From: a virus
Reading direction: 5' to 3' (one strand)
Virus record (IMG/VR): IMGVR_UViG_3300044846_005229
Location: 62,001-126,000 of that record
Length of the DNA stretch: 64,000 nucleotides
In this document: piece by piece, positions 10,070 to 57,445 of the stretch
How positions within the stretch are numbered: the stretch's first letter is position 1
How the letters are laid out: every line of letters starts with the position of its first letter
The notes under the pieces: generated by a model
What the model was told of the DNA's origin: nothing
Database searches by the model: none
What the model saw: only the letters and a program-made list of their open reading frames with translations
Position numbers and translations under genes: made by a program

Positions 10070-13000
10070 TCAGGACAAGATGTTGGTGATCATAGCGCCA
10101 GAACCGATAAGACCAGATGCACCGAGGCCAACCAAGTTAACCACACGTTCGATGGTGATTTCAGCACGCACGACACGGCGTTCGCGAATGTAGTACTCCA
10201 ATTTGTTATCGTAAAGGCTCTTTATCCCTTGCTTCTGCATGTTTCTATGCAGTTCAGACTATATCATCGTTTTGTAAACAAAACGTCAGGCGCTCGTGGA
10301 TTGTTCACCTGTTCTAGGCTACTTAATCTAGTCGTTGGACCTTGCTTTTATCCCTAAAAGCCTTGGCTGCTGATTGCCTTGTGTTTCAAGGAATTCACTC
10401 CTGAAACCGTCAGGTTTCCCAGCAATTCACCTAATTTCTTTTTATGTCAGACCCCAGTAGTTAAGGACGGACAGCGGGTGTTCCTGTGAGTTGATCATTT
10501 TTGTTAGCGTGAAGGTTATTTATCCTCCACTTCTTCACATTTCTGCAAAGATCAGACTATATCTTCTTCCTTGAAATTCCTTATAAACCTTTGAAGAGTT
10601 TTTGACCTAAACCCGTTTTTCTTTGTGTCCAGATTTAATAATTGACCTAAGAGTATGTCCCCAGGTTTGTTATTTTCAATCCATACTTGTCTAATCTTAT
10701 CCTTCATTCCCTCCAAGTCTTTATTAGAGTTTGGGTGAGCATAACCCCTAGGGGTATTTGAAGAATTTAATCTTGCCTTTGAGATATTCATCCGCCTCTC
10801 TGGTGTCAATGATACACCTTTTAGAGACTCGGCAATACGAAAATTATGGGATTTAGACCTGACATAGTTTTTACGGAGAAATTCGTAGATTCTCTCACCC
10901 CCGACTGAACTCATTCTGAATACTGCATACCATAGACCTTCATGGTCAAGGTACATTTTATTCAAAAGGCGGTGAAGTATAAAGTGTTGCCTCAAGGTGG
11001 GGTAGCACAGATTTTCAGGGTCCGTTTTACTTCCGCCTAGGCATTTTGGAACTATGTGGTGCTCTTCAGTTTTGTGGGACACAGGACGAGTTTTGGGGCA
11101 TTGGTAAATTATTTGCCAATACCACTTTTCCCATTTATTAAGAAAGTGACATTCAAGGAGTGGGGCGCTCGTGGATGGGTTATTATTTTCGGTATTCACC
11201 ATCTAGTCGTTGAACCTTTTGACTACAACTCTATTATAGCATAGAGTCCGAAATAGTCAACTTGGCTGCTGATTACCATAGCTTTCAAACTCTCGTTTGA
11301 AGCCGTAGGCTTCCCAGCAATTCACCCCATTGATCTGCGGATCAGGCAGATAATTTGACGTTACCGTCAAACCACGCATTCAACTCGTTTGAAAGAAACG
11401 ATGTTATTAACATACGTGTAACTGAAGGACGGAGTCGCAGCATTAGCACCACCCGCAGGCATGATCGAATCAGAAGGGCCGTTGGGGCTGTAGAACAGGA
11501 GGATGCCATTGGCGGGGAAGACAGGCTGCAAGGAGCCGTCGTTGGCCAAATAACGCCCTTCAGCTACGCGCAGGCCACGCTCAAGACCGAAGTAGCGAGC
11601 GATGACATCTGTGTCGATGCTATCGGCGGAAGTGTACTTGATACGATCAAGGATCGCTTCGTTGGTCAGCAAGAGGTCGAAAACCGAAGTTCCAAGAACA
11701 GCGGAGTTCGGACGAATGCCGATCTGGTTGGCAACAGCACGCTTCAGAGTCAGGATGTCCTCAATGGGATTAGAGGTTGCACCAGACCATGCGGCAGGGC
11801 CAGTGGCTGTGCCATAAGCGGTGTTGAAGGCGGTCCAGGTTGTAAAACCAAGACCAGTTTGTGAGCCAGGAGTCCCATTGTAGGGCTCGTATGGATTGTA
11901 GCTGCCAGTCACTGAAACAGCTTGAGCAACGGTGTACTCGTAGCTGTTCATCCATTATGTTATCGCGAGGGCTCTTTATCCCTTGCTTCTGCATGTTTCT
12001 ATGCAGTTCAGACTATATCATCGTTTTGTAAACAAAACGTCAGGCGCTCGTGTCAGCTTCATTACTGTTCTAGTAGTATGCTGTTAGTCGTTGAACGTTC
12101 CGTCAATCCCTTGACGGCTTCGCTGCTGATTACCATAGCTTTCAAACTCTCGTTTGAAGCCGTAGGCTTCCCAGCAATTCACCCAATTTTCTAAATGAGA
12201 TCAATCTCATAGGGCCAATGTGTTTAGCCTAGACATCGCATTGCGAGTCTCGACGGCGCGTAGCATTTGTTAACTCAGCGGCTCTTTATCCACTGATTCA
12301 TTACCTTGTCGTTGGTAATGTTCAGACTATATTATTGCCCCACTATGTACACGATTACTGTACTTTGTAAGACATTGGGCGCTCGTGTCAGCTTCATTAC
12401 TGTTCTAGTAGTATGCTGTTAGTCGTTGAACGTTCGTTTTCTCCCGAAAACGCTTCGCTGCTGATTGCCCACGCGGGGGTTCCAGCAATTCACCCAATTT
12501 AGAGTGGACCTACGCTGCGATCGAAATCGTTCGTAAAAAATAATCCACTTGTGCAGGACCTTCTCCTGCGTTCTCGATTCAATAATGTTATCGCAAAGGC
12601 TCTTTATCCTTTACTTCTCTCTGTTTCCAGAAAGTTCAGACTATATCTTCACCCTTATCAGGGTGCTGGGCGCTCGTGTCAGCTTCATTACTGTTCTAGT
12701 AGTATGCTGTTAGTCGTTGGACCTTGCTTTTATCCCTAAAAGCCTTGGCTGCTGATTACCATAGCATCAAACTTTCGTTTGAAGCCGTAGGCTTCCCAGC
12801 AATTCACCCAGTTTTTCTATCAGTTTTTCAACTGACGGAGGCTATCGATCTAACCTCTTCCAAGGTTGTTATCACAAAGGCTCTTTATCCTTTGCTTCTG
12901 TAAATTTACCATCTTTACAGTTCAGACTATATCACCACCCATTTTTGAATGATATCCAATCTAAGTCTTTTGAAGGTACCCAACCTTGCTCAAATTTACG

Positions 13001-15850
13001 AACCATGCGGGACACAGAAGTTGATCTTCTTACTCCCACTAAAGTTGATAGCTTTACTCCACCACATCTATGGTGAAGCCACACATTATAAATTTGATCG
13101 GCGATCATCCAAAGATTTTTGGCTTGTCTACTTGTGGATGTAGCCGTGTTTCTATATGGGGGTATATTATAACCGTGCTTAGAAACAATACTCTTTCCTA
13201 AATTAGGGAGCTTTGTGTAAGCTTTAACTAAATGAGGATGCTTAGTGTTATTCAAAAACCTAGTTATACTTCTAGCTATAAACGGGGTCATTTCCATTTT
13301 ACCTAATAAAAGATGTAGAATGTAATGTTCCCTCGGAGTTAAAGTAACTTTCCAGTGTCGATCTATATGCTCCCAGTTTTTGGGAAATAAGCATTCTGGG
13401 ATGACGTGGTGTTCTTCTACTGAGCCTTTAAGATAGCTAGACCCGTTGGTCCTTCTTTTTTCGACTTTTTGGATTATACTCCAATACCACTTCTCATATT
13501 TACTTGAATAGTGGCAAGTTAGGTGTTGGGCGCTCGTGGATGGGTTATTATTTTCGGTATTCACCATCTAGTCGTTGAACCTTTTGACTACATTCCCATT
13601 ATAGCATGGGAACCGAAATAGTCAACTTGGCTGCTGATTGGCCATTAAGTTGGAGGCTTTCCAGCAATTCACCCTATTATTCTTACCGCGCTAACTAGGC
13701 AACGGCAAGGCCCAAAGATTTAGGCAATTCCCATGCGACCACTTCCTGCTCCAGAGCATAGGGCTCGGAGTCGTAACGGCTTTGGACGTAGGGGATGTTT
13801 GTCATTTGTTAACGCAAAGGCTCTTTATCCCTTGCTTCTACATGTTTCCATGTAGGTCAGACTATATCTTTGCCTTACATTACCATGTAGGGCATTGGGC
13901 GCTCGTGGATTGTTCACCTGTTCTAGGCTACTTAATCTAGTCGTTGAACCTTGCTTTTATCCCTAAAAGCCTTGGCTGCTGATTACCATAGCTTTCAAAC
14001 TCTCGTTTGAAGCCGTAGGCTTCCCAGCAATTCACCCAATTTATTTACGGCACAAACTAATTACCGTAAGCACGACGGAAGTCGTTGATAGCAACACCAT
14101 GTTATCGTAGAGACTCTTTATTCCCTACCTCTGCATGTTTCTATGCAGTTCAGACTATATCATCGTTTTGTAAACAAAACGTCGGGCGCTCGTGGATTTT
14201 TCACCTGTTCTAGGCTACTTAATCTAGTCGTTGAACCTTGCTTTTATCCCTAAAAGCCTTGGCTGCTGATTTCCCTCGCCTTTACGTTAGGGGTTCCCAG
14301 CAATTCACCCAATTTTACAACAGCAAGCTATTTACTGTTCCTTCAATTATGTTATCGCAGGGGCTCTTTATCCCTTGCTTCTGCATGTTTCTATGCAGTT
14401 CAGACTATATCATCGTTTTGTAAACAAAACGTCAGGCGCTCGTGGAGTTTTCATCTGTTCTAGATTACTAACTCTAGTCGTTGAACCTTGCTTTTATCCC
14501 TAAAAGCCTTGGCTGCTGATTACCATAGCATCAAACTTTCGTTTGAAGCCGTAGGCTTCCCAGCAATTCACCCAATTTTTCATAACCCCTCACGGAGTTA
14601 AGCGGCATATGGAATACCGAAGCGCAGGATACGTCCTGCACGAGTTGGAGTGTCTACCACCGGTGCTATGAATAATATACAAAACTTAACGTTTTGCTCT
14701 GCATGTTTCCATGCAGTTTAGACTATATCATCATCTTTGCCTAAGCAAAGAGTCGGGCGCTCGTGGAAAGATTATTCTTGGGTCAGTCACTTTCTAGTCG
14801 TTGAACCTTCTTACTTCACTCTTATTATAGCAACAAGAGACCCGAAGTAAACTTGGCTGCTGATTGCCTCTTTTGCATAGCAAAAGTAAGGTATCCCAGC
14901 AGTTCACCCGATTATTCGACAGGGGTCACCCCCTGAAGGAACCTCATTGATTCGCAATGTTGGTAGACGGTAGCATGAAACCTTGCGCGAGGGTGGTGAG
15001 ACATTTGTTAACGTAGAGGCTCTTTATCCCCTACCTCTCTTTGTTTCCAAAGAGTTCAGACTATATCATCGTTTTGTAAACAAAACGCCCGGCGCTCGTG
15101 GATTTTTCACCTGTTCTAGGCTACTTAATCTAGTCGTTGAACGTTCCGTCAATCCCTTGACGGCTTCGCTGCTGATTACCATAGCATCAAACTTTCGTTT
15201 GAAACCGTAGGCTTCCCAGCAATTCACCGGATTTTCTTTGTTAAAAACAAAGCCACTCCTTTAAATGGGCAATATGTTATCGCAAAGGCTCTTTATCCTT
15301 CACTTCTTTACATTTCTGCAAAGGTCAGACTATATCATCATCCTTTAACTCCCATGCTGAGGAGTCAAGGAGCTGGGCGCTCGTGGAGTTTTCATCTGTT
15401 CTAGATTACTAACTCTAGTCGTTGGACCTTGCTTTTATCCCTAAAAGCCTTGGCTGCTGATTGCCTCTTTTGCATAGCAAAAGTAAGGTGTCCCAGCAGT
15501 TCACCCAGTTTTCTGCCATCATTAAAATGACAGGGACCCTAATTAATCCACACCTGCGTAGGTCTGTTGTAGCATTATGTTATCGTAAAGGCTCTTTATC
15601 CTTCACTTCTTTACATTTCTGCAAAGATCAGACTATATCATCAACTTGCAAGCAAGTTGTCGGGCGCTCGTGGATTGTTCACCTGTTCTAGGCTACTTAA
15701 TCTAGTCGTTGAACGTTCGTTTTCTCCCGAAAACGCTTCGCTGCTGATTACCATAGCATCAAACTTTCGTTTGAAACCGTAGGCTTCCCAGCAATTCACC
15801 CGATTTTCATCCCAAGGTTACCCTTGAGCGGAACCGCCATGATTCATCAT
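10070..15850 (-). CDS. Major capsid protein, 14 exons interrupted by 13 group I introns
   Basis: Predicted exons in transcript order: 15827-15850, 15546-15572, 15265-15269, 14950-15001, 14616-14660, 14334-14343, 14063-14097, 13701-13802, 12853-12860, 12543-12579, 12226-12263, 11369-11952, 10464-10495, 10070-10198. They total 1128 nt and encode 375 residues with no internal stop. The product opens MMNHGGSALQQTYAGVD, passes through AINDFRRAYGTNIPYVQSRY and RAVETRNAMSRLMNSYEY, and ends GLIGSGAMITNILS. This reads as a phage major capsid protein (HK97-like fold inferred). Each boundary has U at the exon end and G at the intron end, and the guide pairing is clear for most. The exon 1/intron 1, exon 8 and exon 12 boundaries are the least certain by a few nt: an alternative first exon, ATG at 15840 to 15820, is also in frame. 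GAAAAGGAA upstream of 15850 could serve as ribosome binding site. Confidence 0.85.
10199..10463 (-). ncRNA. Group I intron 13 of the capsid gene (265 nt)
   Basis: Exon UCCU pairs with guide GGGG across the 8-nt loop UAACUACU. Full core. It ends ...AACAAATTG before exon 14 (GAGTACTAC). The P5 loop (GTGTTTCAAGGAATTC) is unique to this copy; P6 and P8 match intron 7. Confidence 0.9.
10552..11202 (-). CDS. HNH homing endonuclease encoded in capsid intron 12
   Basis: 216 residues. An HNH motif is visible around residues 46-85: EEHHIVPKCLGG, then a spaced Asn (PENLCYP) and RQHFILHRLL. Such enzymes cut intron-less alleles and spread the host intron. The middle has a NUMOD-like basic helix (LKGVSLTPERRMNISKARLN) and the C-terminus FRSKTLQRFIRNF. 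The gene lies in the P8 loop. The first 13 residues (MVNTENNNPSTSA) come from intron sequence shared with intron 8, and the last codons plus the TGA are read from the S element GATATAGTCTGA. A sigma70-like promoter lies 31 nt upstream. Confidence 0.85.
   Translation of the reverse strand: MVNTENNNPSTSAPLLECHFLNKWEKWYWQIIYQCPKTRPVSHKTEEHHIVPKCLGGSKTDPENLCYPTLRQHFILHRLLNKMYLDHEGLWYAVFRMSSVGGERIYEFLRKNYVRSKSHNFRIAESLKGVSLTPERRMNISKARLNSSNTPRGYAHPNSNKDLEGMKDKIRQVWIENNKPGDILLGQLLNLDTKKNGFRSKTLQRFIRNFKEEDIV
11233..11260 (-). promoter_or_regulatory. Promoter-like element in the P6 loop of intron 12
   Basis: Minus strand: TTGACT, 16 nt, TATAAT. The -10 ends 31 nt before the HNH ATG. The same bases can fold as a stem (GACTA...TAGTC) that extends P6, so the element may serve both RNA structure and transcription. 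Confidence 0.65.
11953..12225 (-). ncRNA. Group I intron 11 of the capsid gene (273 nt)
   Basis: Exon GGCU pairs with guide GGCC; P2 hairpin ATGAGAT-TG-ATCTCAT. Full core. It ends ...AACATAATG. P6 matches intron 3, P8 matches introns 9 and 10, P5 matches intron 7. Confidence 0.88.
12264..12542 (-). ncRNA. Group I intron 10 of the capsid gene (279 nt)
   Basis: Exon GUGGAU pairs with guide GUCCAC over 6 bp, with a long 31-nt P1 extension that itself folds (TACG...CGTA). P5 is unusually short (TGCCCACGCGGGGGTT). It ends ...AACAAATG. Its S region differs slightly (CAATAATATAGTCTGAAC). Confidence 0.9.
12580..12852 (-). ncRNA. Group I intron 9 of the capsid gene (273 nt)
   Basis: Exon GAGGU pairs with guide GCCUC; a P2 hairpin CAGTT-GAAA-AACTG follows. 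Full core. It ends ...AACATTATTG. P8 is of the TCAGCTTCATTACTG class, shared with introns 10 and 11. Confidence 0.9.
12932..13567 (-). CDS. HNH homing endonuclease encoded in capsid intron 8
   Basis: 211 residues. HNH motif around residues 50-95: EEHHVIPECLFPKNW, DRHWKVTLTPREHYILHLLL. The N-terminal 13 residues are identical to the intron 12 enzyme (MVNTENNNPSTSA), and the same WYWxII segment follows, but the body is otherwise diverged. The C-terminal part has a helix-turn-helix-like DNA-binding segment (GGVKLSTLVGVRRSTSVSRM). It sits in the P8 loop, and its stop TGA partly overlaps the start of the S element. An upstream TTGACT/TATAAT element at 13598-13625 should allow expression independent of the capsid promoter. 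Confidence 0.85.
   Translation of the reverse strand: MVNTENNNPSTSAQHLTCHYSSKYEKWYWSIIQKVEKRRTNGSSYLKGSVEEHHVIPECLFPKNWEHIDRHWKVTLTPREHYILHLLLGKMEMTPFIARSITRFLNNTKHPHLVKAYTKLPNLGKSIVSKHGYNIPPYRNTATSTSRQAKNLWMIADQIYNVWLHHRCGGVKLSTLVGVRRSTSVSRMVRKFEQGWVPSKDLDWISFKNGW
13598..13625 (-). promoter_or_regulatory. Promoter-like element in the P6 loop of intron 8
   Basis: Minus strand: TTGACT, 16 nt, TATAAT, at the same position in the intron as in intron 12 and placed just upstream of the HNH gene. Confidence 0.65.
13803..14062 (-). ncRNA. Group I intron 7 of the capsid gene (260 nt)
   Basis: Exon UACGGU pairs with guide GCCGUA over 6 bp. Full core. It ends ...AACAAATG before ACAAACATC. P5 matches introns 11 and 12; P8 matches introns 1 and 13. 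Confidence 0.92.
14098..14333 (-). ncRNA. Group I intron 6 of the capsid gene (236 nt)
   Basis: The shortest copy. Exon AACAGU pairs with guide GCUGUU over 6 bp and no separate P2 is seen. Full core. It ends ...AACATG. The P5 loop is unlike the other introns (CTCGCCTTTACGTTAGGG). Confidence 0.9.
14344..14615 (-). ncRNA. Group I intron 5 of the capsid gene (272 nt)
   Basis: Exon CGGU pairs with guide GCCG; P2 hairpin AACTCC-GUGA-GGGGTT. Full core. It ends ...AACATAATTG, followed by the 10-nt exon AAGGAACAGT. Peripheral loops match intron 2 in P6 and P8 but intron 9 in P5. Confidence 0.9.
14661..14949 (-). ncRNA. Group I intron 4 of the capsid gene (289 nt), divergent 3' end
   Basis: Exon GAAU pairs with guide GUUC; the P2 hairpin CAGGGG-GUGA-CCCCUG has a GNRA loop. 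The core is intact, but the 3' end differs from all others: after S it has CAAAACGTTAAGTTTTG and TATATTATTC in place of the usual GGATAAAGAGCC...ATAACA. The P6 loop holds a TTTACT-16-TATAAT element like those upstream of the HNH genes, but P8 contains no ORF. The 3' splice site after CACCG is chosen by reading frame. Confidence 0.8.
15002..15264 (-). ncRNA. Group I intron 3 of the capsid gene (263 nt)
   Basis: It follows the 5-nt exon CCCAT. Exon CCAU pairs with guide GUGG across the loop UUAAAGGA. A P2 hairpin CTTTGTT/AACAAAG follows, then the full P, Q, R, S core. It ends ...AACAAATG. The P6 loop has the CCGTCAATCCCTTGACGG hairpin, shared with intron 11. Confidence 0.9.
15270..15545 (-). 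ncRNA. Group I intron 2 of the capsid gene (276 nt)
   Basis: Exon GGAU pairs with guide GUCC across an 8-nt loop that begins UAAUUA, like the T4 td intron start. A P2 hairpin (CTGTCAT / ATGGCAG) follows. Full P, Q, R and S core. It ends ...AACATATTG. The P5 loop shares the TTTTGCATAGCAAAAG hairpin with intron 4; P8 is of the GGAGTTTTCATC class, shared with intron 5. Confidence 0.9.
15573..15826 (-). ncRNA. Group I intron 1 of the capsid gene (254 nt)
   Basis: Core elements are visible: GAATTGCTGGGAA (P), AATCAGCAGC (Q), TTCAACGACTAGA (R), GATATAGTCTGA (S). The intron ends ...AACATAATG before exon 2 (CTACAAC). The 5' stem is capped by a GUAA tetraloop. Peripheral loops: P6 of the GTTCGTTTTCTCCC class, P8 of the GGATTGTTCACC class. 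The 5' splice site, set after GCT, is less certain than in the other introns. Confidence 0.85.
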
Positions 15851-15884
15851 AATAGATGATTTCCTTTTCTAGGTTGACTTCAAA

Positions 15885-15900
15885 GATTGCCTTGGCAATC
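15885..15900. promoter_or_regulatory. Inverted repeat upstream of the capsid gene
   Basis: GATTGCC-TT-GGCAATC, 7-bp arms, 35 nt before the capsid start. It may be an operator or a 5' leader hairpin. A possible extended -10 (TGTGGGTATAAC, minus strand) lies about 40 nt further upstream, but no good -35 is seen. Confidence 0.4.
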
Positions 15901-15972
15901 TAACCCCAAAAGTTCGAAAACTCTAGGGTCACTGTAGTTATACCCACACTTTGCTAATGGAAGCCTAACCAT

Positions 15973-17799: not shown

Positions 17800-20370
17800 T
17801 CAGTTAGAAGTCCAAAGGCAAGTTTTGATGGCTTCCAAATAGTCGGAGGCTTCACCGCGTTTTACCATTTCAAGGGCTCTTTCATGGGGATCCATGTTTT
17901 CTAAGGTTGCTTCAAATGCTTTGTCTTCTGGTCCAACAATTTCCCCAAAATGCACCATGCTTGGCAGGCGATTTAAAATTCCAAAAAGTTTGGATGTTGG
18001 TGTTTCACCTTCAGAGAATTCCAAGGTCCCAAATTCTAAACCTTCGCAGAAACTTTGCAGTTCATCTTGCTGAATGATAGCATTGGTCAGTTTGCCGTCG
18101 CTATAAAGGTTCTCAACGTAGTGGGAAATCCTTTGTTTATGGGCATGAACTTTCTGCTCTTCGAATTCCTTCTTGAGCCTATCGTTTTCTTGCTTAAGGG
18201 CTTCGATCTCCCTGTAGATTTGGGCGGGGAACCCAGTCGGGCGGGCTTGACCTGCAGAACCCATTCCGCTATACTTAACTTCTTCTTCCCCGTCAGAACA
18301 AGCTCCCATGGAACCCTTGGGCTCCTTATAAGTCGAACCCTTGCCTGTTACAGTCATTGGGTCTTCCTCCTCCGCTGCCTTTTTACGGCGGGACATTTCA
18401 CCTTCAGCATGGTTGACGGATGCCTTCTCACCGGACTTCTGACGAACAACCCGGACCTTATCACTTTGGGTAGCATCCTTTAGGTCAACTGCCATGTCGA
18501 GATCATCCGGATCTTCCTCAGAGCGAGTTGGGAAATCAGTCGGGCCACCCTCGCGGCCACGGGGGGCTTTACCACTGGAAGTCTTGGCGGATTTCGGTTC
18601 TCGGACGACCCCCTCTTCATCAGGCTCACCACCTTCGGCATGGTCGGCAATTGGGCCACCTTTGAGTGGGGCTCTTTTGTCGCTAGATGATTGGTGAATG
18701 ACGCGAGAAGTTTTGTTACCTTTAACTGATTTGACATCTACTGCCATGTCGAGATTGTCGGGGTCTTCCTCAGAAAGGTTAGAAACTGGGGTAGGCCCTT
18801 CGCTGCGGCCATGGGGATCCTTCCCATCGGAAGTTCCAGGGCGTTGCTTCTCTGGGTACTTGGTGCTGGCATCGTCATACTGATCGTTGTTTCTATCTTT
18901 GGCCATAGTGTCTTGACCGGCCCAACGACCTTCCTGACTATTGTCACCATCTTCCTCTCTAGCAGTCTTGAGACGGTCCTCGTCTTGTTCGCTATTTTTT
19001 GCAGTCTTGAGACGGTCCTCGTCTTGTTCACCATCGCTGGTTACACCCTCGCGGTCTTCCTCTGGGGCTTTACCAGCCTTTTGACGGGCACCGTAGCTAT
19101 CATCTTTAGATCGGGCAGTAACTGAACGGCCAGTAACTTTATCTCCGGTTTCACCTTTGCGGGTACCAAAGGATACTTTCCCATTAGATGCGGTTTTGTG
19201 ACTAACTTCGTCGTACTCTAGTTCATTGTACTCTGAATCCTCGTCATCCATTTCCTCTTCGTCCATGTCCGCTTCGTCAACAGGTTGACTGGGGGCTTTC
19301 TTTTTCTTGGACTTGGAAACTTCCTTATGCTGAGAATCGATACCTTCCTCAAATACTTGCTCAACAACCTGAACTTCCTGGCCACCAGCCCCTTTAGAGA
19401 CACGGCGCTTAATGCCTTCTTCGAATTCGGTGTCTTGGCGCTCCGTCTCATCCTCAGGGGAGTCCATCATTCTGGACTTTTTGCCACATTCGGTAACTTC
19501 CTTGAATTCCCCGTCTTCTTCGGTATCATCAAGTTTGGCTTCGGGGGAAACTTTTGATTTGGACATTTTTGGCTTGTTTTCTGGTGCTTTGGTTTCTAGA
19601 TTGGCTACTTCTTGAGTAGACTCAGTGATTTCAGCGCCTTCGCGCCCCAAGTTCTTTTTCATTTCAGAGAATTGCTGATTAGGGTTATCGGGGTTGGCGT
19701 TTTGATCCGCCGAATTTGTGGTTTCAGGTTGTTGGCCTTGGCCGACATCTGGTTCTGTTTGTTGGTCCTGGTTTTGTTCTAGTTGCTGTAGGGACTGATT
19801 GACTTCACTTTTGACTTCATCTAGTCTTTCTTTTAGCATTTCTAGGGGACTTTTTTCTATAAGCAGCGTCGGTCCTAAGTCCTTATCAAAAATTTGGTCA
19901 GGGGACAAGGCTACTGCAAAGTCGAAAACTCCCTCTTCTTCGCTGAAAGAGAATGGCTCCAAGCCTTTCACAGCTGGGGGTGCAGCTCCGAGTAATGCCA
20001 AATGCCTTGCACTCCACTTGCCTTTGTGTGGGTTAATGGGGGAATCGGGGGAATAGAAGGAAATGGAAACTTTCCTATAATGACCACCTCTAACTAAGTC
20101 CTTAGCTACATCCGTAAATTCTACATCTGCATATAAGTCATCACCCTTTTGAGAGAATCCTTTAATCCACCCGTAAGCAGGTACGCTGTCGTTATCTCCA
20201 GAGTGGCCAATTACAAGGGGGGCTGAATGGACTTTGGGGTCATATGAGTTTGCAACTTCCTTAAGGTCGTCAGCAGAGAAGTTTCTCTGCACACCCTGTG
20301 CGCTAGTTTGGGGGCCAGCTTTAAATACGTGGACTTTTTTTGAGAACACTTTTTTATCGGATTTACTCAT
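17800..20370 (-). CDS. Prohead protease-scaffold fusion (Mu I protein-like), 856 aa
   Basis: Residues 1-165 resemble the protease part of Mu-type I proteins: SKKVHVFKAG, DDLKEVANSYDPKVHSAPLV, VPAYGWIKGF, and ARHLALLGAAPPAVKGLEP near 135. Residues about 170-680 are a very long acidic/Gln/Lys-rich disordered region with internal repeats (SEEDPDNLDMAVD / SEEDPDDLDMAVD, RLKTAKNSEQDED / RLKTAREEDGD). Residues about 690-730 form a coiled coil (EIEALKQENDRLKKEFEEQK), followed by a compact C-terminus. The layout suggests a protease that later digests the fused scaffold. Most such proteins are 300-450 aa, so the disordered insert is exceptional. Confidence 0.7.
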   Translation of the reverse strand: MSKSDKKVFSKKVHVFKAGPQTSAQGVQRNFSADDLKEVANSYDPKVHSAPLVIGHSGDNDSVPAYGWIKGFSQKGDDLYADVEFTDVAKDLVRGGHYRKVSISFYSPDSPINPHKGKWSARHLALLGAAPPAVKGLEPFSFSEEEGVFDFAVALSPDQIFDKDLGPTLLIEKSPLEMLKERLDEVKSEVNQSLQQLEQNQDQQTEPDVGQGQQPETTNSADQNANPDNPNQQFSEMKKNLGREGAEITESTQEVANLETKAPENKPKMSKSKVSPEAKLDDTEEDGEFKEVTECGKKSRMMDSPEDETERQDTEFEEGIKRRVSKGAGGQEVQVVEQVFEEGIDSQHKEVSKSKKKKAPSQPVDEADMDEEEMDDEDSEYNELEYDEVSHKTASNGKVSFGTRKGETGDKVTGRSVTARSKDDSYGARQKAGKAPEEDREGVTSDGEQDEDRLKTAKNSEQDEDRLKTAREEDGDNSQEGRWAGQDTMAKDRNNDQYDDASTKYPEKQRPGTSDGKDPHGRSEGPTPVSNLSEEDPDNLDMAVDVKSVKGNKTSRVIHQSSSDKRAPLKGGPIADHAEGGEPDEEGVVREPKSAKTSSGKAPRGREGGPTDFPTRSEEDPDDLDMAVDLKDATQSDKVRVVRQKSGEKASVNHAEGEMSRRKKAAEEEDPMTVTGKGSTYKEPKGSMGACSDGEEEVKYSGMGSAGQARPTGFPAQIYREIEALKQENDRLKKEFEEQKVHAHKQRISHYVENLYSDGKLTNAIIQQDELQSFCEGLEFGTLEFSEGETPTSKLFGILNRLPSMVHFGEIVGPEDKAFEATLENMDPHERALEMVKRGEASDYLEAIKTCLWTSN

Positions 20371-20372
20371 GC

Positions 20373-22190
20373 TTATTTTTTACCCTTGACCTTGTTTTCC
20401 ATCTCTGATATTATAGAGTCTAATTCTCCATCGGAAATTCCACTTGTGGATTCGGCCTCATTTGACCCTTCCTCGGGGAGTTCCCCCGGTTCGGATTCCC
20501 CTGGTTCTTCAGCCAATGCAGAGTCTAAATCGGATAGTAAGGAGTCTAACTCTTTGTTGGCTTTGCTATTTTTCTTTTTTGGTTGCTTTTCTACAGGGGG
20601 TTGCTTTGTTGGAGTTTCTTCATTCGGAGTCGTCTCATCCGGGGTCTCTTCAGTTGGGGTCATCTCAACCGGAGCCTCTTCATCCAGGGTTTCTTCAGTC
20701 GGGGTCGTATCATCCGGGGTTTCTTCACCCTGAATTCCCTCATCCGGGGCCCCTTCATCTGGGGCCACCTCGTCCGGAGTCATCTCAGCCGGACCCCCTT
20801 CAGTAGGGGGAACCTCTGGGACTTCGCCCTCAGTGGTAGATCCTGGGACCCCTTCAGCATCCCCACCCGAACCATCATCAGGGCCAAAAATTGACTCATA
20901 TAGGTTCTTATCCTTTTCAGGGTCAAACGTAGTTTCACCTTCGCTACCCTGTTGGCCCTCAGCAGATTTAGCCTCATCTTCCAGATCAACTCTAAAGTGT
21001 CTCTCAATCCATTCTCTACGGGGTTTGAAACCATTTTGAATCAATAGGGAAACATCAGCGGGTGTCAGTTGGGACTCCTCAATTCTGAACTCCCTAGTTA
21101 AAGTCGGAGATGCAACATCAGCACCGAAATTTAAATCTACAATCCACCTTACCAAAGTTTGAGTTAGTTGATGACAGATCATTTCTGATATCTCAGATGC
21201 CCTCACCACTCGAACTACGTTGGCAACCATTGACGAAGCCCTGGAACCAGACTCAGCCTGCCCAGCTTCATTTTCACCGCAAATCAGAAGGCTAATGACT
21301 TTATCTAGGTAGTCAATCAAGCCTTTAAATACATCGGGGCTACCTTCAGGGTTTATAAAATCCAATACGAACCCTTCAGGTAAAACCATCGCGGTCTCTT
21401 GGGATAAATTTGAGATCATCCCATAAATATTATCGATTTCGGCTGTTGATGCACTTAGGGGGGCAGTTGCTACGGTAGTCGGGGTTGCATATCTATCACC
21501 ATAGAGAACATAAGACTCTAATGCCCTCCTCCTAAACTTCACCAGGGGGTATAAAATACGACCAATCGAAGAACCATAGGGATCCCCATTATGCTGAGTC
21601 CAGTACCTATTGATGATGAATTTACGCGCAGGTAGCTCGATACCTTCAAACATCCTGTTGAATGTCAAGCAACGCATTGTAAAACCTGTTTGAGAATCCT
21701 CAGCTTCTTGGAAGACAAATCGGCGCTGGTCTCTAACTCGAACATCAAATGGGATGACACCCCGCTTGGTTTTTTTCCACATTACTTCCGCAACACTGAA
21801 ACCAACGATTAAGGCTTCGGCTAAGCCTTTGAAAATATCGTCTATTGGCAACTCTTCTAAAACTTCAGCTACAAAGTCCCTGACGGCTAAGTCTCCGGGT
21901 TTATCGCTGTATTCCTGAATATACCATGGCCTAGACGTAACTTCCTGGAGCAACTTAGAGTAAGAACCCTGGACTTGTTCATCCAATAGCAACCTTTGGT
22001 AAGTTGATAATGCGCGATTACCCCCCTTTTGGATTAGTAGATCGTCATTAGGGCGAACAATGCTGGAACCAGTCCCCGTAAAAGGAGAGCTGGAACCAAA
22101 CATGTAAATAGAACTAAGCGCATACGGGTTACTGATGTACGAGCTTATTTCACCGGTTGGGACAGGCGAGGTCTTAAATCTTTTGGCCAT
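20373..22190 (-). CDS. Portal protein, Mu gp29 / DUF935-like
   Basis: 605 residues. Residues about 40-400 match the DUF935 portal family: QRLLLDEQVQGSYSKLLQEV, GFSVAEVMWKK, RRFVF, RYWTQHNGDPYGSSIGRILYP, KFRRRALESYVLYGDRYATP and LICGENEAGQAESGSRASS. Portals form the dodecameric vertex through which DNA is packaged. Residues about 415-600 are a disordered tail with many repeats of the type TPTEETPDE; the usual family length is about 500. It sits upstream of the protease/scaffold and MuF genes in standard Mu order. The terminase is not in this window. Confidence 0.85.
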   Translation of the reverse strand: MAKRFKTSPVPTGEISSYISNPYALSSIYMFGSSSPFTGTGSSIVRPNDDLLIQKGGNRALSTYQRLLLDEQVQGSYSKLLQEVTSRPWYIQEYSDKPGDLAVRDFVAEVLEELPIDDIFKGLAEALIVGFSVAEVMWKKTKRGVIPFDVRVRDQRRFVFQEAEDSQTGFTMRCLTFNRMFEGIELPARKFIINRYWTQHNGDPYGSSIGRILYPLVKFRRRALESYVLYGDRYATPTTVATAPLSASTAEIDNIYGMISNLSQETAMVLPEGFVLDFINPEGSPDVFKGLIDYLDKVISLLICGENEAGQAESGSRASSMVANVVRVVRASEISEMICHQLTQTLVRWIVDLNFGADVASPTLTREFRIEESQLTPADVSLLIQNGFKPRREWIERHFRVDLEDEAKSAEGQQGSEGETTFDPEKDKNLYESIFGPDDGSGGDAEGVPGSTTEGEVPEVPPTEGGPAEMTPDEVAPDEGAPDEGIQGEETPDDTTPTEETLDEEAPVEMTPTEETPDETTPNEETPTKQPPVEKQPKKKNSKANKELDSLLSDLDSALAEEPGESEPGELPEEGSNEAESTSGISDGELDSIISEMENKVKGKK

Positions 22191-22266
22191 TGCCTTCCCC
22201 CTTGTTGATATGATGTTTGACCAAGCTACTAAATGTTATGCTGTAGAGGTTTTACCCCGTGGAAAC

Positions 22267-22644
22267 TTAGTTTCCAAGGGAGAATTGAACAGGAGGTTGA
22301 GGTATGTTATTGACGGCGTAAGTAATGGCCACTAAATAAACACCGTCGTCCCCCCTGGTTACCCAGTCCCCATTAACAGAGAGGGAAGTTAAACCTGAAA
22401 CCTGTGATGATATTGAAGTTTGAAACTCTGAATTAATTTGCCCAGGGTCCATTACATCTAGAGTATGGTCACCAACCCCATAATCAGCTCTCATCACCCT
22501 TTCGAAAAATCTCGTCTCTACTACACTTCTGATCTCTTGAGATTTCAATTCAAAATCAGTACTTGTAGCTAAATTACCATTCTTAATTCTTAAAGGGTAA
22601 GCTATGCCCCTTACAGTGGGGTATGTCGGTTGCGGCACACTCAT
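22267..22644 (-). CDS. Baseplate wedge protein gp25 / GPW-like
   Basis: 125 residues. It fits the gp25/GPW pattern: GIAYPLRIKNGNLATSTD, an ETRFFERVMRADYGVG segment (family: R..R..p.yG), and a C-terminal beta strand with VTRGDDGVYLVAITY. Proteins of this family link wedges to sheath and hub. It overlaps the preceding gene by 4 nt. Separation from the main baseplate operon by head genes shows a rearranged gene order. Confidence 0.8.
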   Translation of the reverse strand: MSVPQPTYPTVRGIAYPLRIKNGNLATSTDFELKSQEIRSVVETRFFERVMRADYGVGDHTLDVMDPGQINSEFQTSISSQVSGLTSLSVNGDWVTRGDDGVYLVAITYAVNNIPQPPVQFSLGN

Positions 22645-29238: not shown

Positions 29239-32184
29239 TTAAATGAGACCCTTCCGGATTGAATCATACCGGAAAGTCAACTTATTGACAGCACCCAATT
29301 CAAATAGTTGGGTCATTGAGTATTCAACCCCGGGTGGTTCATCACCCCCGGACTGATTGGATGGAGTTACCGTATTCTCTTTTGGGGACTTCCGGAGCCT
29401 GTCATCAATAGCAACCGAGGAGAAGAACGCTCGGCTCAATGGTAATTCGGGTATTTCCATCGCATAGTGGAATAAACACCAAGTGAAAAGGTGGGCAATC
29501 TGGAATAACACGGCAAACTGCTCTGCGTATTTTTCCGGTGTCATGAAATGCAGTTCATCATGGATGCTAATTATGAATCGGTAGGGGATCTTAAACTCTT
29601 CAGCCAGCCATGCCACGGCAGTTAGGGTGATAGACAAGATTTCAGACCCAGACGCTTGAATTGCCCAATTTGTCCTACCTGTTTTAAAATCATTGCCGAC
29701 TGCAGAGGGCATCATGGCCGTTGATATTTTTGTACCCAGACAAGGTAACCGGGGTGTACCCGGCCCCATGGAAATTCTTTCCATCATATTGAATGCGCCT
29801 GAGTCTGACCCACCTTCGTATTTACCGAACCTTAAGACCCCCTTCTTAGACGCAATAGCTTTAAGAGCAAAAGTCTTGACTGCATCCTCATCTTTATTGG
29901 GGAAGGTCATCCTGATGGGGTTACTAAGGGCTCTGACGCTCCCGCCGTACAAAGTAGCAAATCCTACAATCTTGGCCAGGTCCCTCGTTATTTTGAGCAT
30001 AGTGTCCTTTTCCTTATCAATTGGGGACACCCAGTAGCCATCACGGGGATGGCAATCATCGCTGTCTTCAGGTTTTTGCTCATATTTATAGCAGATCCCC
30101 AGGGTCTTATCCCAAATTAGACCTTCATACAGCTCGGGAAAGATGGCTCGGGCCAATGCAGTGTGAGGATCAGTGCCATTCTCTTTAGAACCCGAAAGCA
30201 CATTGTATCCCATGGGCGAACACCCAATGAAACCACCCTCCCATTTATCACTATAGATAGACGCAATCTGCATCTCTTGGCCGTCATAGTCCGCACTAAT
30301 GATTTTCCACCCCTCAGGGGCCTGAACACGGGTCTTAAGCTCGGTTCCGATGCGCCAGCTCTTGGTAGAGCACATGGTGGCCATAAGGCTCTCTACGACC
30401 CTCCGGGTGACGGTTCCGTGGCAGATGATCTCTGGAAGGGTAACGAGGTTAGGTTTCCCTAAGGGGTTGGTGGCCCCCATGACAATACGGCTTTTAACCC
30501 GGCTGCGAACTGATGTCCAAAAACTAATGGCATTGGCGATTTCTAGCGCCCTTTTTGCCTCCGGTAAGTCACTACTTAGTCTTCCAACTTCCATGTGAGT
30601 AACGAACTCTTTTGAGAATAGTCCGCCTACGTTTTCCCCAGGTTTCTTAGGGTGTGGGATTCTATCCAGGGTGCCTTCCCCCGTAGTAAAACACCAACCT
30701 TGTCCATCTTCCCAAACGATAGGGGTGCCTTCCCATTTTAGTTTCAGTAGGAAATGCGATAGTTTGCTTTTAACGCCAATCTCCTTATCAGGGTCCTTCT
30801 TATAGGGCCTCATCCAAGTGGGGATCCATGCGTAGACACCCTTAATAGACTTCACTTCCCAATCTAATTGGCGAATCCATGGGTCTTTTGATACCCATTT
30901 GCTTGCCTCTTTGACCCCGATTTCCTTTGTTTCGTGGCTGTCTACTATTTCCTTCCATGAATTGAAAGTATCCCATAGCAAAGTCTTACAAAGACCGGTC
31001 ATTTCCTGGTTATGGCTGTTATAGACTTCCTCAGCCCCTTGCACCCATTCAAACCAGTTGTCCACTAACGGCACCACAGACCCATTCAGATGGTAATGCC
31101 CGCAAAGCCCCACCATTGATGGTGTGCTATCAAGGTATTTTGGCCATAGAGCCTGGAATAATTCCGAAGTATAATAAGCGTCCTTAATGGCATAATCGAC
31201 TGTTTCAGCTAGTACCTTATTGATTTCGGAAAGCGTATCAGCGGTAACAAAAATGTTCCTAATTTCCTTGTCGGAATCTGATAATGGCTTTACATCGCCA
31301 TCGTCAAAGAAAAATTCCTTTGCCCGTTGAACATGAAAGTTGTATGTTTTAACTAGGGAGTTTGTGCTCCCCCTGTCAAGCCATTCTGGGGAGTACTTGA
31401 GTTTCCGCTTCTCCTCATCATCAAGCAGATCAAAGTCCTTTTCAGCCAGGGCATAAAGCCACCTTTGGCCTGATGCTAATCCTGATACGCCAACGTGGGC
31501 TGATAGGGTGTCAAAGTAGAAATTTTCCGGTTTGGTAAAATCTAGTGAATAACCCTCTTGGGCCCTCACACGGTCATAGGATATATTATGGCCAATAACA
31601 AGCCTATCAGTTCCAATTGGAATAAGTTTAAATTGATCCCAATCATTTTGGGGAATATCAAGGTTAACAAGCTCGGCGGCTAACCAAATATAGGCGGCCC
31701 TATCACTTAGAGCAGTTCCAATAATAGGAAAGGCCCCACCTTTAACGAAAGTTTCCGTGTCAAATGTAAATACTTTTTCTTCGGGGTAGGGTACTTCCCT
31801 AGTTTGCCACTGTTTGTCAGGGCCATCGCCGATAAGCTCATACCGCGTCCACCCCGATTGGAATACTAAATCGGTGATTGACGGAATCTTTGGTAGGGTG
31901 CATTTGGCAAATTTATTGCCTAGTTCCTTGTAGCGTCCAACTTGATTTTCTGCAATCTTTTCAAAGTGGTCGCGGATATTGTTGGCCTTTAGGCTAGGCA
32001 GGGGGACTGGCCCATCATAGATGCTTTCGGGATAATCAACTGGGGTCTCAATCCCAAATTTCCTCAAAAGGGAAACGGCCTGATCCTTTTGCTTGCTATT
32101 CATTTCGGGCCTGTAATCAGATCCAAAAATCTTTAGGTGCAAGTCATCGGACAAGACCGGGTAGCCAAGGGCAGTAGTTTTCAT
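29239..32184 (-). CDS. Family A DNA polymerase resembling mitochondrial polymerase gamma
   Basis: 981 residues. Exonuclease motifs: I TFDTETFVKGGAFPIIG (about 140), II VIGHNISYDRVRAQEGY (about 200) with LSAHVGVSGLASGQRW after it, III DYAIKDAYYTSELFQALWP (about 345). Polymerase motifs: A SADYDGQEMQIAS (about 635) preceded by RVQAPEGW and followed by GCSPMGYN, B RDLAKIVGFATLYGGS (about 755), C SIHDELHF (about 885). These are all of the POLG type rather than PolI or T7. Catalytic Asp residues in A and C are present. It should replicate the phage genome with proofreading. It stands alone between small genes. Confidence 0.92.
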   Translation of the reverse strand: MKTTALGYPVLSDDLHLKIFGSDYRPEMNSKQKDQAVSLLRKFGIETPVDYPESIYDGPVPLPSLKANNIRDHFEKIAENQVGRYKELGNKFAKCTLPKIPSITDLVFQSGWTRYELIGDGPDKQWQTREVPYPEEKVFTFDTETFVKGGAFPIIGTALSDRAAYIWLAAELVNLDIPQNDWDQFKLIPIGTDRLVIGHNISYDRVRAQEGYSLDFTKPENFYFDTLSAHVGVSGLASGQRWLYALAEKDFDLLDDEEKRKLKYSPEWLDRGSTNSLVKTYNFHVQRAKEFFFDDGDVKPLSDSDKEIRNIFVTADTLSEINKVLAETVDYAIKDAYYTSELFQALWPKYLDSTPSMVGLCGHYHLNGSVVPLVDNWFEWVQGAEEVYNSHNQEMTGLCKTLLWDTFNSWKEIVDSHETKEIGVKEASKWVSKDPWIRQLDWEVKSIKGVYAWIPTWMRPYKKDPDKEIGVKSKLSHFLLKLKWEGTPIVWEDGQGWCFTTGEGTLDRIPHPKKPGENVGGLFSKEFVTHMEVGRLSSDLPEAKRALEIANAISFWTSVRSRVKSRIVMGATNPLGKPNLVTLPEIICHGTVTRRVVESLMATMCSTKSWRIGTELKTRVQAPEGWKIISADYDGQEMQIASIYSDKWEGGFIGCSPMGYNVLSGSKENGTDPHTALARAIFPELYEGLIWDKTLGICYKYEQKPEDSDDCHPRDGYWVSPIDKEKDTMLKITRDLAKIVGFATLYGGSVRALSNPIRMTFPNKDEDAVKTFALKAIASKKGVLRFGKYEGGSDSGAFNMMERISMGPGTPRLPCLGTKISTAMMPSAVGNDFKTGRTNWAIQASGSEILSITLTAVAWLAEEFKIPYRFIISIHDELHFMTPEKYAEQFAVLFQIAHLFTWCLFHYAMEIPELPLSRAFFSSVAIDDRLRKSPKENTVTPSNQSGGDEPPGVEYSMTQLFELGAVNKLTFRYDSIRKGLI

Positions 32185-32557: not shown

Positions 32558-33484
32558 CTACTGTAAGTGGTACCATTCTTCCTCTCTTTCAATTTCTTCA
32601 ATTTTACCCCTTACCCAAGTTGATTCCGTATCATCATCTAGGTCACCATCTAGTTGGAAATTAATTGATTGATTTAGTTTTTGAAAACTTACTTCAAAAT
32701 CCTGAAGACCTGAACTTATGTAAACATCTTTTCTATTTCTCTTGTAGATGTCAAATACGTCATCAATTTTTGAAAATTCATGGGGGCGGCATTCCGGGTG
32801 CTGCTGCCACTTTCTCATTTCGAAGAATGAAAATGGCTCATCGATTTCCCATGATTTATCTTTACCTTCGAAAAGTCTAATAAGGGCGTCCCTCTTCCAC
32901 CAATTGCTTACTCTGTCAATATAATACTCCCATGCAGTTTCGTCAGTCAAGTAAGTATCACAATCTTTACGGATTGACTCAAGTTCTTTTTTACCGTCGT
33001 TTATGACATCCATGGTAGCTTCAGGGAGCACACCAAATAGGTACTCAGGGCGGCACTCATTGATGCGTTCATACACACTGGGAAACAAAACCGAGTAGCA
33101 CATTAGCTTATAGTCGTCAGAATCTCCACAAATTAAATCTAAGATAGTTTCAAAGATTGATATTGACGTTGCGATTTGCTTTTCCAGGTCTGGCTCGTGC
33201 TCTTCTTCCCGGTCTGGCAGTCCTCTTTCACTTCTAAGATCACGAATTTCACTCATCAACCCCTCAATATCAAGCTTTAGCTTCTTGTTTTCCCTACCCA
33301 TTTCTCTTTCTAGCCGTGCCTTGTAAGCCTCCACTTCGTAGAATAGGTTTGTAACTTTTTCTTTTAGATAATCAAGAGATAATGCCGTCTTATTATCTAG
33401 TTGGGTGCGAGCATTAAAGTCTTTTTCAACACTGCGGATACTGGAGAGAACGCTGGTTTTTAATTTGAGAATCGAATCGTTCAC
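32558..33484 (-). CDS. Coiled-coil hypothetical protein (308 aa)
   Basis: 308 residues. The first 100 form a coiled coil (KEKVTNLFYEVEAYKARLERE, KLKLDIEGLMSEIRDLRSE); the rest is mixed with Trp-rich helices (WEYYIDRVSNWWKRDALIR). No catalytic motif. The stop/start gap to the next upstream gene is 1 nt, so the two are probably co-expressed. Function unknown. Confidence 0.55.
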   Translation of the reverse strand: MNDSILKLKTSVLSSIRSVEKDFNARTQLDNKTALSLDYLKEKVTNLFYEVEAYKARLEREMGRENKKLKLDIEGLMSEIRDLRSERGLPDREEEHEPDLEKQIATSISIFETILDLICGDSDDYKLMCYSVLFPSVYERINECRPEYLFGVLPEATMDVINDGKKELESIRKDCDTYLTDETAWEYYIDRVSNWWKRDALIRLFEGKDKSWEIDEPFSFFEMRKWQQHPECRPHEFSKIDDVFDIYKRNRKDVYISSGLQDFEVSFQKLNQSINFQLDGDLDDDTESTWVRGKIEEIEREEEWYHLQ

Positions 33485-33485
33485 G

Positions 33486-34055
33486 TTAAATTGGTTTGAT
33501 GGTTGCTTTTAGTTTGTTTTCTGGTTCTCCGGGTTCAGTTGTATCTGATGGCCGGATTATGAAGCTGAATTTCTTTTCAGGGTCTGATAGCAGATGAAAA
33601 TCACCCATAAAATGTTTGCCTTCAGAAGATAACAAAAATGAATTACCCGGTGTCGGCGGAGAACACAAGGCAATGTCACCTTCTAAATCGGGGTCAGCCT
33701 CTTCGATGGCTATTACTAATTCCCTGTAAATGGCGGAGGTCTTGGCTAGATCCTCATCAGTGGTTATTTCAGCCCTGACTTCATCCTGTACGGCCTCTAA
33801 GCGAGATTCTAGGCCAGTGTCAAGCTGGATGGTGAAGATAGCTCCGTCATTTTCCGACTCAAACATGACTTCTTCAGGTTCAAATTCACAGTCTTCGGGC
33901 TCTTGATCTGTGAAATCAAACTCCAGAAGCGAGTAGAAAGCTTCTTTAAGTGTGTCACCGTCTGGGCCACCTAGGTAGTTGGCTATGGCATAGAAGATTT
34001 TGGGGTTTGCTAACAATCTGGAGACAGGGTATACAATTGACATAGTTCGGTCCAT
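33486..34055 (-). CDS. Acidic hypothetical protein (189 aa)
   Basis: 189 residues, strongly acidic (TDQEPEDCEFEPEEVMFESE), ending with a basic tail KLKATIKPI. The first ATG lies only 8 nt below a -10 box; an internal ATG (MSIVYP) is an alternative start. It heads a three-gene set before the polymerase. An acidic DNA-mimic role is possible but not supported by more than composition. Confidence 0.5.
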   Translation of the reverse strand: MDRTMSIVYPVSRLLANPKIFYAIANYLGGPDGDTLKEAFYSLLEFDFTDQEPEDCEFEPEEVMFESENDGAIFTIQLDTGLESRLEAVQDEVRAEITTDEDLAKTSAIYRELVIAIEEADPDLEGDIALCSPPTPGNSFLLSSEGKHFMGDFHLLSDPEKKFSFIIRPSDTTEPGEPENKLKATIKPI

Positions 34056-34146: not shown

Positions 34147-36201
34147 TCAAGAGATTGAAGGGAGTTTAATTTCAGTTAAGTTCGCAATTTTAGCCCCTTT
34201 CGCACCAGGTTTCCCTAGCTTTATGGAAAGGTCAATTTTTGCTGGTTTTTTCTTTGTCGATACCCACTCGATGGTAAATGGTTTCTCCCCAAAATACATA
34301 AAGACGGCCCCTTCCGGCAACCATTGTTTGCCTGTACTTGTGGTTCTACACAGGGTTTCACCATCCATGGCCATAGCCCTTAGTTGACCATCAACCATGA
34401 ATACAGCCAGGTATTTGCGTCCCGAGACGTATGCTTCCGGTTTTGCAAGCACCACAGGTGAATACCCTGTGGAAATTACACCCTTATAGGAAGCAGGCAC
34501 CTTCTTTAGCATTCCGTCCTCGCACACTAGGATTAGCTTGTCGGTAGACCCCATGGCCAGGCAACCCTTGGGACCCTTAGATTGCTCGACGGTACCTTTC
34601 TTCATGTCGATTTTCAGGAAGCGCGGTTTTGCTATCAGGGTAGTGGCTGAGGTGGCAGATTCCCCATTGTCTACTCTAGGGCGAGTTACCGTAGAAACCG
34701 GAACATCAATTAAAGGGCTCCTGCGGGGAACCCCATATTGCTTGTTAATCCTAGCGAGTTCCTCCAACATGTATGTCTTTCGAGCACTGACATTATCGGC
34801 TTCGTCCCCCACCAAAGACCCGAGCCTTTCAATGTCAGCCAGTAGTTCATTCTTTTCGCATACCATCGAATCAAAGTCTAGGCCTGTTAATTGCCGCAAC
34901 CTCATTTCTAAAATGGCATCAGCTTGTTGTTCGGTGAATTTAAGCGGCGGTGACATTAGGGATTGCTTGGCTTCAGATTTGTCATTTGCGGCACGAATGC
35001 GTTTAATGACTAGGTCCATCCGGTCAATCGCCTTTAGGAGGCCATCAACGATGTGTAATCTTTTGTTTTTTGCCTCCAGTTCATGTTCAAATTTAACATC
35101 AAGCCGACCCAACCTCCATTGGACCCATCGTTGGATAATTTGGACCGGTGATAACTCAACGGGCTTAAACCCATCGATAACCAAGGTTTTAGCCGAGTAT
35201 TTGCAATCAAGGTCCGTATATGTGTATAGCAACTGCTTTACCAAATTAATATCAGCACCAGGTTTGAGGACCACCACCAGCCTATCCCCACTAATATCAC
35301 TTTCATCTGTGATCTCGGCTATCCCCTCAATACGTCCTTTTTCTAACTCACTCTTGATCTGCTCACCAAGTTTCTCTGGATTGGTGCCAGGTGGCAAACA
35401 AGTGAAAGTCAAGGTGGATCGATCCCTTGATTTTCCGCCCCTTTTCTGAATACCGGACTCAACACGGGCCATACAGCGTATGCCCCCGATTCCAGTACGG
35501 GTATAAGCATCTAGTTGCTCGTCTTGGACGATTTGGGTGCCAGTTGGGAAATCGGGAATTAGAGATAGGCTGGCTTTTTTTATATTATCAAGGTGGGCCT
35601 TTTCGGTAGGGGCATCCTTGCAAATTAACTTAATGGCTTCTACGATAGAACGTAAGCTGTGGGGAGCCAAACGGGTAGCAAAACCCACGGCAATTCCTGA
35701 GTCACCGTTTAGCAAAACGGTTGGCAAAGAAGTATTAAACCTGATGGCCTCCCGCTTACTGCCATCATAGTTTGATTTAGTTTCCCACACTTCCCGGTCT
35801 TGTAAAAGAAGTTCCACTGCGGAAATTCGTAGTCTATTTTCTAGGTACCTTTCTGCTGAGGGGGAGTCAACTGTGCTTCCAATATTTCCATGACAATCAA
35901 TCCAAGGGACATTATTGTTCCAGGGGGTAGCCATGTTAATCAGGGCCCCGTATGCAGAGCCATGGGGATGGTAATAGGCACTAGTTAGGCCCGTAGTTCG
36001 GGCACACTTTACATACGGTTTATTCGGAAGCAATCCCTCTTCAATCATCGTCTGAAGGATGCGTCTTTGAACTGCCTTTAACCCATCGTAAATGTCCGGT
36101 ATCGATCTCCCGATAAGCACGGCCATACTGTAGCTCAAATAGTCTTCCTTGAGCTGATCGACGAGATTGACTTCTGTGATTTTTGGCCTAGTTTTAGTCA
36201 T
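34147..36201 (-). CDS. Type II DNA topoisomerase A subunit (GyrA/ParC-like)
   Basis: 684 residues. Signatures: SYSMAVLIGRSIPDIYDGLK then AVQRRIL at the N-terminus, YYHPHGSAYGALINMA, and SAERYLENRLR carrying the catalytic Tyr near residue 120. The tower/coiled-coil region has ILEMRLRQLTGLD. The C-terminal 170 residues form a beta-pinwheel-like region (KPRFLKIDMKKGTVEQ, KLILVCEDGMLKKV). It cuts and rejoins DNA to relieve torsion in replication. It is shorter than GyrA (about 875) and close to ParC (about 750). No B subunit is in the window. Confidence 0.88.
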   Translation of the reverse strand: MTKTRPKITEVNLVDQLKEDYLSYSMAVLIGRSIPDIYDGLKAVQRRILQTMIEEGLLPNKPYVKCARTTGLTSAYYHPHGSAYGALINMATPWNNNVPWIDCHGNIGSTVDSPSAERYLENRLRISAVELLLQDREVWETKSNYDGSKREAIRFNTSLPTVLLNGDSGIAVGFATRLAPHSLRSIVEAIKLICKDAPTEKAHLDNIKKASLSLIPDFPTGTQIVQDEQLDAYTRTGIGGIRCMARVESGIQKRGGKSRDRSTLTFTCLPPGTNPEKLGEQIKSELEKGRIEGIAEITDESDISGDRLVVVLKPGADINLVKQLLYTYTDLDCKYSAKTLVIDGFKPVELSPVQIIQRWVQWRLGRLDVKFEHELEAKNKRLHIVDGLLKAIDRMDLVIKRIRAANDKSEAKQSLMSPPLKFTEQQADAILEMRLRQLTGLDFDSMVCEKNELLADIERLGSLVGDEADNVSARKTYMLEELARINKQYGVPRRSPLIDVPVSTVTRPRVDNGESATSATTLIAKPRFLKIDMKKGTVEQSKGPKGCLAMGSTDKLILVCEDGMLKKVPASYKGVISTGYSPVVLAKPEAYVSGRKYLAVFMVDGQLRAMAMDGETLCRTTSTGKQWLPEGAVFMYFGEKPFTIEWVSTKKKPAKIDLSIKLGKPGAKGAKIANLTEIKLPSIS

Positions 36202-55940: not shown

Positions 55941-55998
55941 TGTCGCGCATCCGTTGATTCTTTGGGAAACATGTGGTCTATGGTTTTATCGAAAAAGT

Positions 55999-56962: not shown

Positions 56963-56986
56963 GGGTCGGAAGGGGACTACATCATT

Positions 56987-57015
56987 ACTATAGCGTTTCT
57001 GCAGTGCAGAAACAA
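56987..57015 (-). promoter_or_regulatory. Promoter/operator upstream of the HD hydrolase
   Basis: Minus strand TTGTTT, 17 nt, TATAGT. A perfect 19-bp palindrome, GTTTCTGCA-G-TGCAGAAAC, at 56995-57013 overlaps the -35 and fills most of the spacer, so a dimeric repressor would block polymerase. Confidence 0.65.
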
Positions 57016-57441: not shown

Positions 57442-57445
57442 TTAC

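Follow-up and report, generated by a model that had tools for sequence, protein, structure and literature searches.

A 981-residue protein encoded in the DNA of a large tailed phage is very probably a replicative DNA polymerase of the POLG type of family A, judging from sequence comparison and a predicted structure. Its gene lies in the window, by which we mean the whole stretch of 64,000 nucleotides analysed here (positions 62001-126000 in a virus record of 279,339 bases). Later papers cite Chan et al. 2011, who reportedly treated POLG homologues from cyanophages and their relevance to the mitochondrial enzyme. The window polymerase is thus not new in kind, cyanophage POLG homologues (A-HIS1/2, S-TIM5, S-CBWM1, Mic1) having been published since 2011, and two papers already raise, in discussing cyanophage POLG, the possibility that mitochondrial POLG came from phages (PMC7156551; PMC3914683). 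What is added here is placement: the phage branch nearest to POLG is named, and the branch of the window polymerase is another one.

The gene and its product

The open reading frame fills positions 29239-32184 of the minus strand exactly, opens with ATG and has no internal stops; the gene, coordinates and motifs quoted in the earlier note were all correct when checked against it. Identical or near-identical copies of the polymerase occur in independent IMG/VR contigs (L069, 100%; L007, L008, L009 and L011, 98%; L010, 95%), and the gene is therefore no assembly artefact. In a Pfam search, the mitochondrial DNA polymerase exonuclease domain (PF18136) matches residues 61-350 with 207.9 bits (E = 2.3e-61; cut-off, 26.7 bits), and DNA_pol_A (PF00476) scores 41.7 bits, also above its cut-off. 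A sequence search of the PDB returns POLG chains (yeast Mip1, human and mouse) at E values of about 4.6e-97 to 1.2e-92, while the first PolI chain appears only at E = 0.85. The features of the gene are as follows.

29239..32184, minus strand: gene for a predicted POLG-type family A DNA polymerase, 981 aa; intact ORF (PF18136, 2.3e-61; TM 0.79 to POLG)
31135..32004, minus strand: N-terminal part and 3'-5' exonuclease domain (aa 61-350), PF18136
31747..31764, minus strand: Exo I, FDTETF (D142, E144), by alignment to POLG, T7 and PolI
31570..31593, minus strand: Exo II, GHNISYDR (D204), by alignment to POLG, T7 and PolI
31168..31194, minus strand: Exo III, YAIKDAYYT (Y331, D335; DEDDy type), by alignment to POLG, T7 and PolI
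30358..31134, minus strand: spacer region (aa 351-609), equivalent of the POLG spacer, by alignments and model
30259..30297, minus strand: polymerase motif A, SADYDGQEMQIAS (D632, E637), by alignment to POLG, T7 and PolI
29986..30162, minus strand: stretch from TDPH to motif B, 59 residues, a lineage-specific insertion beside the fingers
29944..29985, minus strand: motif B, RDLAKIVGFATLYG (R734, K738, Phe at the Tyr951 site, Y746), by alignment
29554..29571, minus strand: motif C, ISIHDE (H875, D876), by alignment to POLG, T7 and PolI

By alignment, the exonuclease residues D142, E144, D204 and D335 (with Y331) are all kept, as are the polymerase residues D632, E637, R734, K738, Y746, H875 and D876. 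The protein thus combines an intact DEDDy exonuclease with motifs A, B and C of family A, as is expected of a POLG-type enzyme.

Assignment to the POLG type

The earlier note had read the motifs as those of POLG rather than of PolI, T7 or SPO1 enzymes, a reading that would have fallen with a tree placing the protein in the PolI or T7 clades. Domain search, structure and tree all back it. In rooted trees (LG+F+R4 and PMSF) that include as outgroups the polymerases of T7, a T7-like Mesorhizobium phage, Cellulophaga, Bacteroides and SPO1 phages and E. coli PolI, a single clade with 100/100 support unites the window protein, its phage relatives and the mouse and yeast POLG. When alternatives were compared by the AU test, grouping of the window clade with T7 (p about 5e-55) or with PolI (p about 1e-87) was rejected.

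The structure agrees with the tree. An AlphaFold2 model built from 32 sequences (mean pLDDT 88.1, pTM 0.87) has the POLG fold, including the spacer between exonuclease and polymerase, and its top structure matches in the PDB are all POLG, with TM scores over the whole length of 0.79-0.80 for the best human chains (0.79 to 8d33); Klenow reaches only 0.35. Membership of the PolI, T7 or SPO1 types is ruled out by tree and structure together. That the protein is an ordinary PolI- or T7-type phage polymerase, POLG-like in its motifs through chance or convergence, is hence exceedingly improbable: it does carry generic family A motifs, and has Phe at the site of human Tyr951 like PolI and SPO1, but the AU values, the TM scores and the PF18136 match all stand against it. 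Among viral models, the best match is G0KYA6, which has 959 residues, the same length as the A-HIS2 polymerase, and from length alone we infer that it is the model of that enzyme.

As for the spacer and accessory-subunit region, which the earlier note had proposed for structure prediction, the spacer is present, but the mammal-specific stretch and a POLG2-like protein are missing. Judged by alignment, the mouse spacer stretch 461-556, which includes the accessory-interacting part in mammals, has no counterpart in the window polymerase, and the HGTP_anticodon domain, the one Pfam domain by which POLG2 was judged, was not found in the record. Since both are missing, a POLG2 partner seems unlikely, and neither mark of the metazoan POLG holoenzyme (the accessory-interacting part of the spacer and an aaRS-like POLG2) is seen. 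Yeast Mip1 functions without POLG2, however, and the missing subunit therefore does not exclude membership of the POLG type.

Relatives of the window polymerase

A tblastn search found full-length relatives in eleven phage records, all of them cyanophages (S-CBWM1, the S-TIM5 group, A-HIS1/2 and Mic1). IMG/VR yielded 132 relatives in one scan and 182 in a later one, the two sets overlapping, and the divergent queries L124 and L093 contributed almost no further relatives. No POLG-type match was obtained in a plasmid scan; the sole match in a scan of GTDB species genomes is partial; its contig (9.6 kb) belongs to a Microbacteriaceae MAG, and we take it for phage DNA binned along with that MAG.

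The DNA polymerase gamma of Synechococcus phage S-CBWM1 (ATW62761.1, MG450654) is 54.6% identical to the window polymerase over its full length and, like it, has Phe at the 951 site; its insertion between motifs A and B counts 46 residues, against 59 in the window. The S-TIM5 polymerase (with those of S-TIM54/61/66) is also of the POLG type, at 36% identity, but has Tyr at the 951 site, no insertion and HDS instead of HDE in motif C, and belongs to a separate clade. At 31% identity, the POLG-type polg of the Acaryochloris phages A-HIS1 and A-HIS2 shares the Phe at 951, yet forms a separate lineage with insertions of its own. The DNA polymerase gamma of Microcystis phage Mic1, likewise POLG-type, is 30% identical; its gene is interrupted at motif A, unlike the intact ORF of the window. 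Interruptions of POLG-type genes were seen at motif A in Mic1 (L005:7819-8233) and at L162:6825-7674, and before the palm at L137:6462-7200; Rfam reported no group I intron at these three loci.

Mitochondrial POLG of human and mouse and yeast Mip1 share domain order, fold (TM 0.79 to human) and catalytic residues with the window polymerase, which is 33% identical to mitochondrial POLG. Apart from the missing mouse 461-556 stretch and POLG2, it differs from POLG in having Phe for Tyr951, Thr for Arg953 and the additional insertion before motif B.

This insertion of about 50 residues precedes the O-helix in the subclade of the window polymerase: the distance from TDxH to motif B is 59 residues, versus 10 in POLG and the majority of relatives. 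Comparable insertions were seen in P0001, L014, L016, L019, L072, L002, L022 and L028, all of the window subclade, and also in L137_split and A-HIS1/2. AlphaFold2 models the insertion as strands, with pLDDT of about 84-89. At the site of human Tyr951, the alignment has Phe in the window polymerase, S-CBWM1, A-HIS, PolI and SPO1, and Tyr in S-TIM5, the Mic1 type, POLG and T7. Phe at the equivalent site in family A enzymes goes with discrimination against dideoxynucleotides, and from this residue the window polymerase is predicted to discriminate against them. With its insertion by the fingers and its Phe951, the window subclade is a useful natural variant for POLG biochemistry. The split between Phe and Tyr among isolates was already pointed out in the Mic1 paper (PMC7156551).

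The phage branch nearest to mitochondrial POLG

In the earlier note, a cyanobacterial phage polymerase of this type was held to bear on where the mitochondrial enzyme came from. That bearing has already been published on, and the lineage of the window is not the one nearest to POLG. With mouse and yeast POLG as the only eukaryotic sequences (reconstructed from PDB alignments and lacking part of the spacer), POLG and the Mic1-type phages group together at 100/100 in the ingroup tree, and POLG stands beside the Mic1 type in the rooted trees at 87/92 (LG+F+R4) and 91/98 (PMSF). The Mic1 type is 41.4% identical to mouse POLG, mouse and yeast being 43.5% identical. Among the sampled sequences, 16 residues are exclusive to the Mic1 type and POLG, and none to the window type and POLG. 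The Mic1 C-terminal tail can be aligned with that of human POLG, and the features in common comprise Tyr951-Arg953, the motif GADVDSQELWI and this matching tail. Grouping of POLG with the window clade was rejected (p = 3.4e-4 with outgroups, 1.6e-4 with the ingroup only); over the window, S-TIM5 and A-HIS clades, AU p ranged from 3.4e-4 to 8.6e-6, with rejection likewise when outgroups were left out. By these sequence comparisons, it is the Mic1 type among the phage polymerases that stands closest to animal and fungal POLG, and not the window lineage.

How the resemblance arose is a separate matter. A tentative reading, with somewhat less than an even chance of being right, is that animal and fungal POLG arose from within the phage diversity of such enzymes, where the Mic1 type of freshwater cyanophages would be its sister, the window lineage being a separate and more distant branch. 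An alternative tree, in which all the phages form one clade that leaves POLG out, was not rejected (AU p = 0.116), and the nesting of POLG inside the phages is therefore a suggestion only. It may instead be, with a likelihood also a little short of one in two, that a shared source not represented in the sample gave POLG-type enzymes separately to the phage lineages and to opisthokont mitochondria, without direct transfer from phage to mitochondrion and with POLG outside all sampled phages. The unrejected tree is consistent with this, as is the softness of the root, which follows from the very long branch of the outgroups; the 100/100 ingroup grouping and the rooted nesting argue against it, as does the genome scan, where the one MAG contig was the only cellular POLG-type gene.

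Transfer in the other direction, in which a phage ancestor captured mitochondrial POLG, maybe repeatedly, is very unlikely. The Mic1 type is almost as near to mouse POLG as yeast is, but the phage polymerases show much greater diversity than the two POLGs in the sample, and no phage falls inside the POLG pair (mouse and yeast together, 98.7-99.7/99-100, with n = 2 eukaryotic sequences). Since the IMG/VR sample names the POLG-adjacent phage branch (the Mic1 type) and the features that it shares with POLG, the question of where the animal and fungal mitochondrial enzyme came from becomes testable with a dense rooted tree.

Proposed replication partners

The record is classed as linear and may be incomplete, and absences from it are therefore no proof. 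No second family A polymerase, no family B polymerase and no PolIII-alpha was detected in it, and the window polymerase is most likely, we infer, the replicative polymerase of the phage. The record further encodes a primase (phrog_25243, the A-HIS1/S-CBWM1 family, which the record and A-HIS1 have in common), a 5'-3' exonuclease (FEN), a UvrD-type helicase, RNR and a ThyX-like protein; the primase, FEN, RNR, ThyX-like and topoisomerase genes are common to S-CBWM1 or to G001, a relative described below.

A mitochondrial-type replisome was looked for in the phage, and no Twinkle, T7-type RNA polymerase or POLG2 was detectable. The domains DnaB_C (Twinkle-type helicase) and RNA_pol (T7-type) were found in none of the record, G001, S-CBWM1, S-TIM5, Mic1 and A-HIS1, while the T7 control was positive; Toprim_2 was not found in the record. 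The two components that mark the T7-like mitochondrial replisome, a Twinkle/gp4-type helicase and a single-subunit RNA polymerase, are thus missing, and hence only the polymerase is common to phage and mitochondria.

In the mechanism we propose, the N-terminal DEDDy exonuclease would proofread, and the palm, fingers and thumb would extend primers by two-metal catalysis via D632 and D876, the POLG-like spacer helping to hold the DNA. The enzyme would copy the phage genome, presumably acting as a single subunit like yeast Mip1. In place of Twinkle, a T7-type RNA polymerase and POLG2, it would work with the primase (phrog_25243) and the 5'-3' exonuclease that the phage itself encodes.

A gene for a DnaN-like sliding clamp lies elsewhere in the record, at 170938-172194 (L152:8938-10194, minus strand), and could change the single-subunit picture. 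As a general processivity partner the clamp was rejected, because a search of 21 other POLG-phage records, several of them fragmentary, found it in none.

The phage and its host

The genes around the polymerase include those of a contractile-tailed phage (tail sheath, portal, head maturation protease and baseplate wedge). Upstream lie:

34147..36201, minus strand: type II topoisomerase A subunit (PF00521, 1.2e-94), on the same strand as the polymerase
32558..34055, minus strand: two ORFs (308 and 189 aa) without assigned function, between topoisomerase and polymerase

The position of topoisomerase A before the polymerase is conserved in S-CBWM1 and G001, and both have the order topoisomerase A, ORFs without assigned function, polymerase; the 308- and 189-aa ORFs are themselves conserved, at 22-32% identity in S-CBWM1 and 36-49% in G001. 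G001 (277 kb) has a polymerase 68% identical to that of the window. Both G001 and S-CBWM1 have a gene content largely in common with the record, although S-CBWM1 has 139 kb against 279 kb.

The earlier note had called the phage cyanobacterial. psbA was not found in the record itself, but because G001, S-CBWM1, S-TIM5 and further relatives carry psbA, the host is most likely a cyanobacterium.

Compared with S-CBWM1, the record has its genes for capsid, primase, terminase and RNR split into pieces. At window positions 10235-15911 (minus strand), twelve Rfam group I introns within 5.7 kb alternate with in-order fragments of the major capsid protein (S-CBWM1 gp175, aa 11-341); the corresponding site in G001 holds five group I introns. 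The primase gene (record 19408-22355, L147:408-3355, minus strand) is divided into two ORFs, which three Rfam group I introns separate. The matches to RNR alpha and the terminase large subunit are fragmented relative to S-CBWM1 (record 10432-12372 and 55274-57995), possibly by introns or inteins, and an ORF at record 12369-13130 adjoins the RNR piece. Finally, the ORFs at record 167128-168555, 107128-108297, 216590-218083 and 265813-266730 presumably resemble, by their N-terminal sequences, cysteinyl- and tyrosyl-tRNA synthetases, nicotinamide phosphoribosyltransferase and quinolinate synthase.
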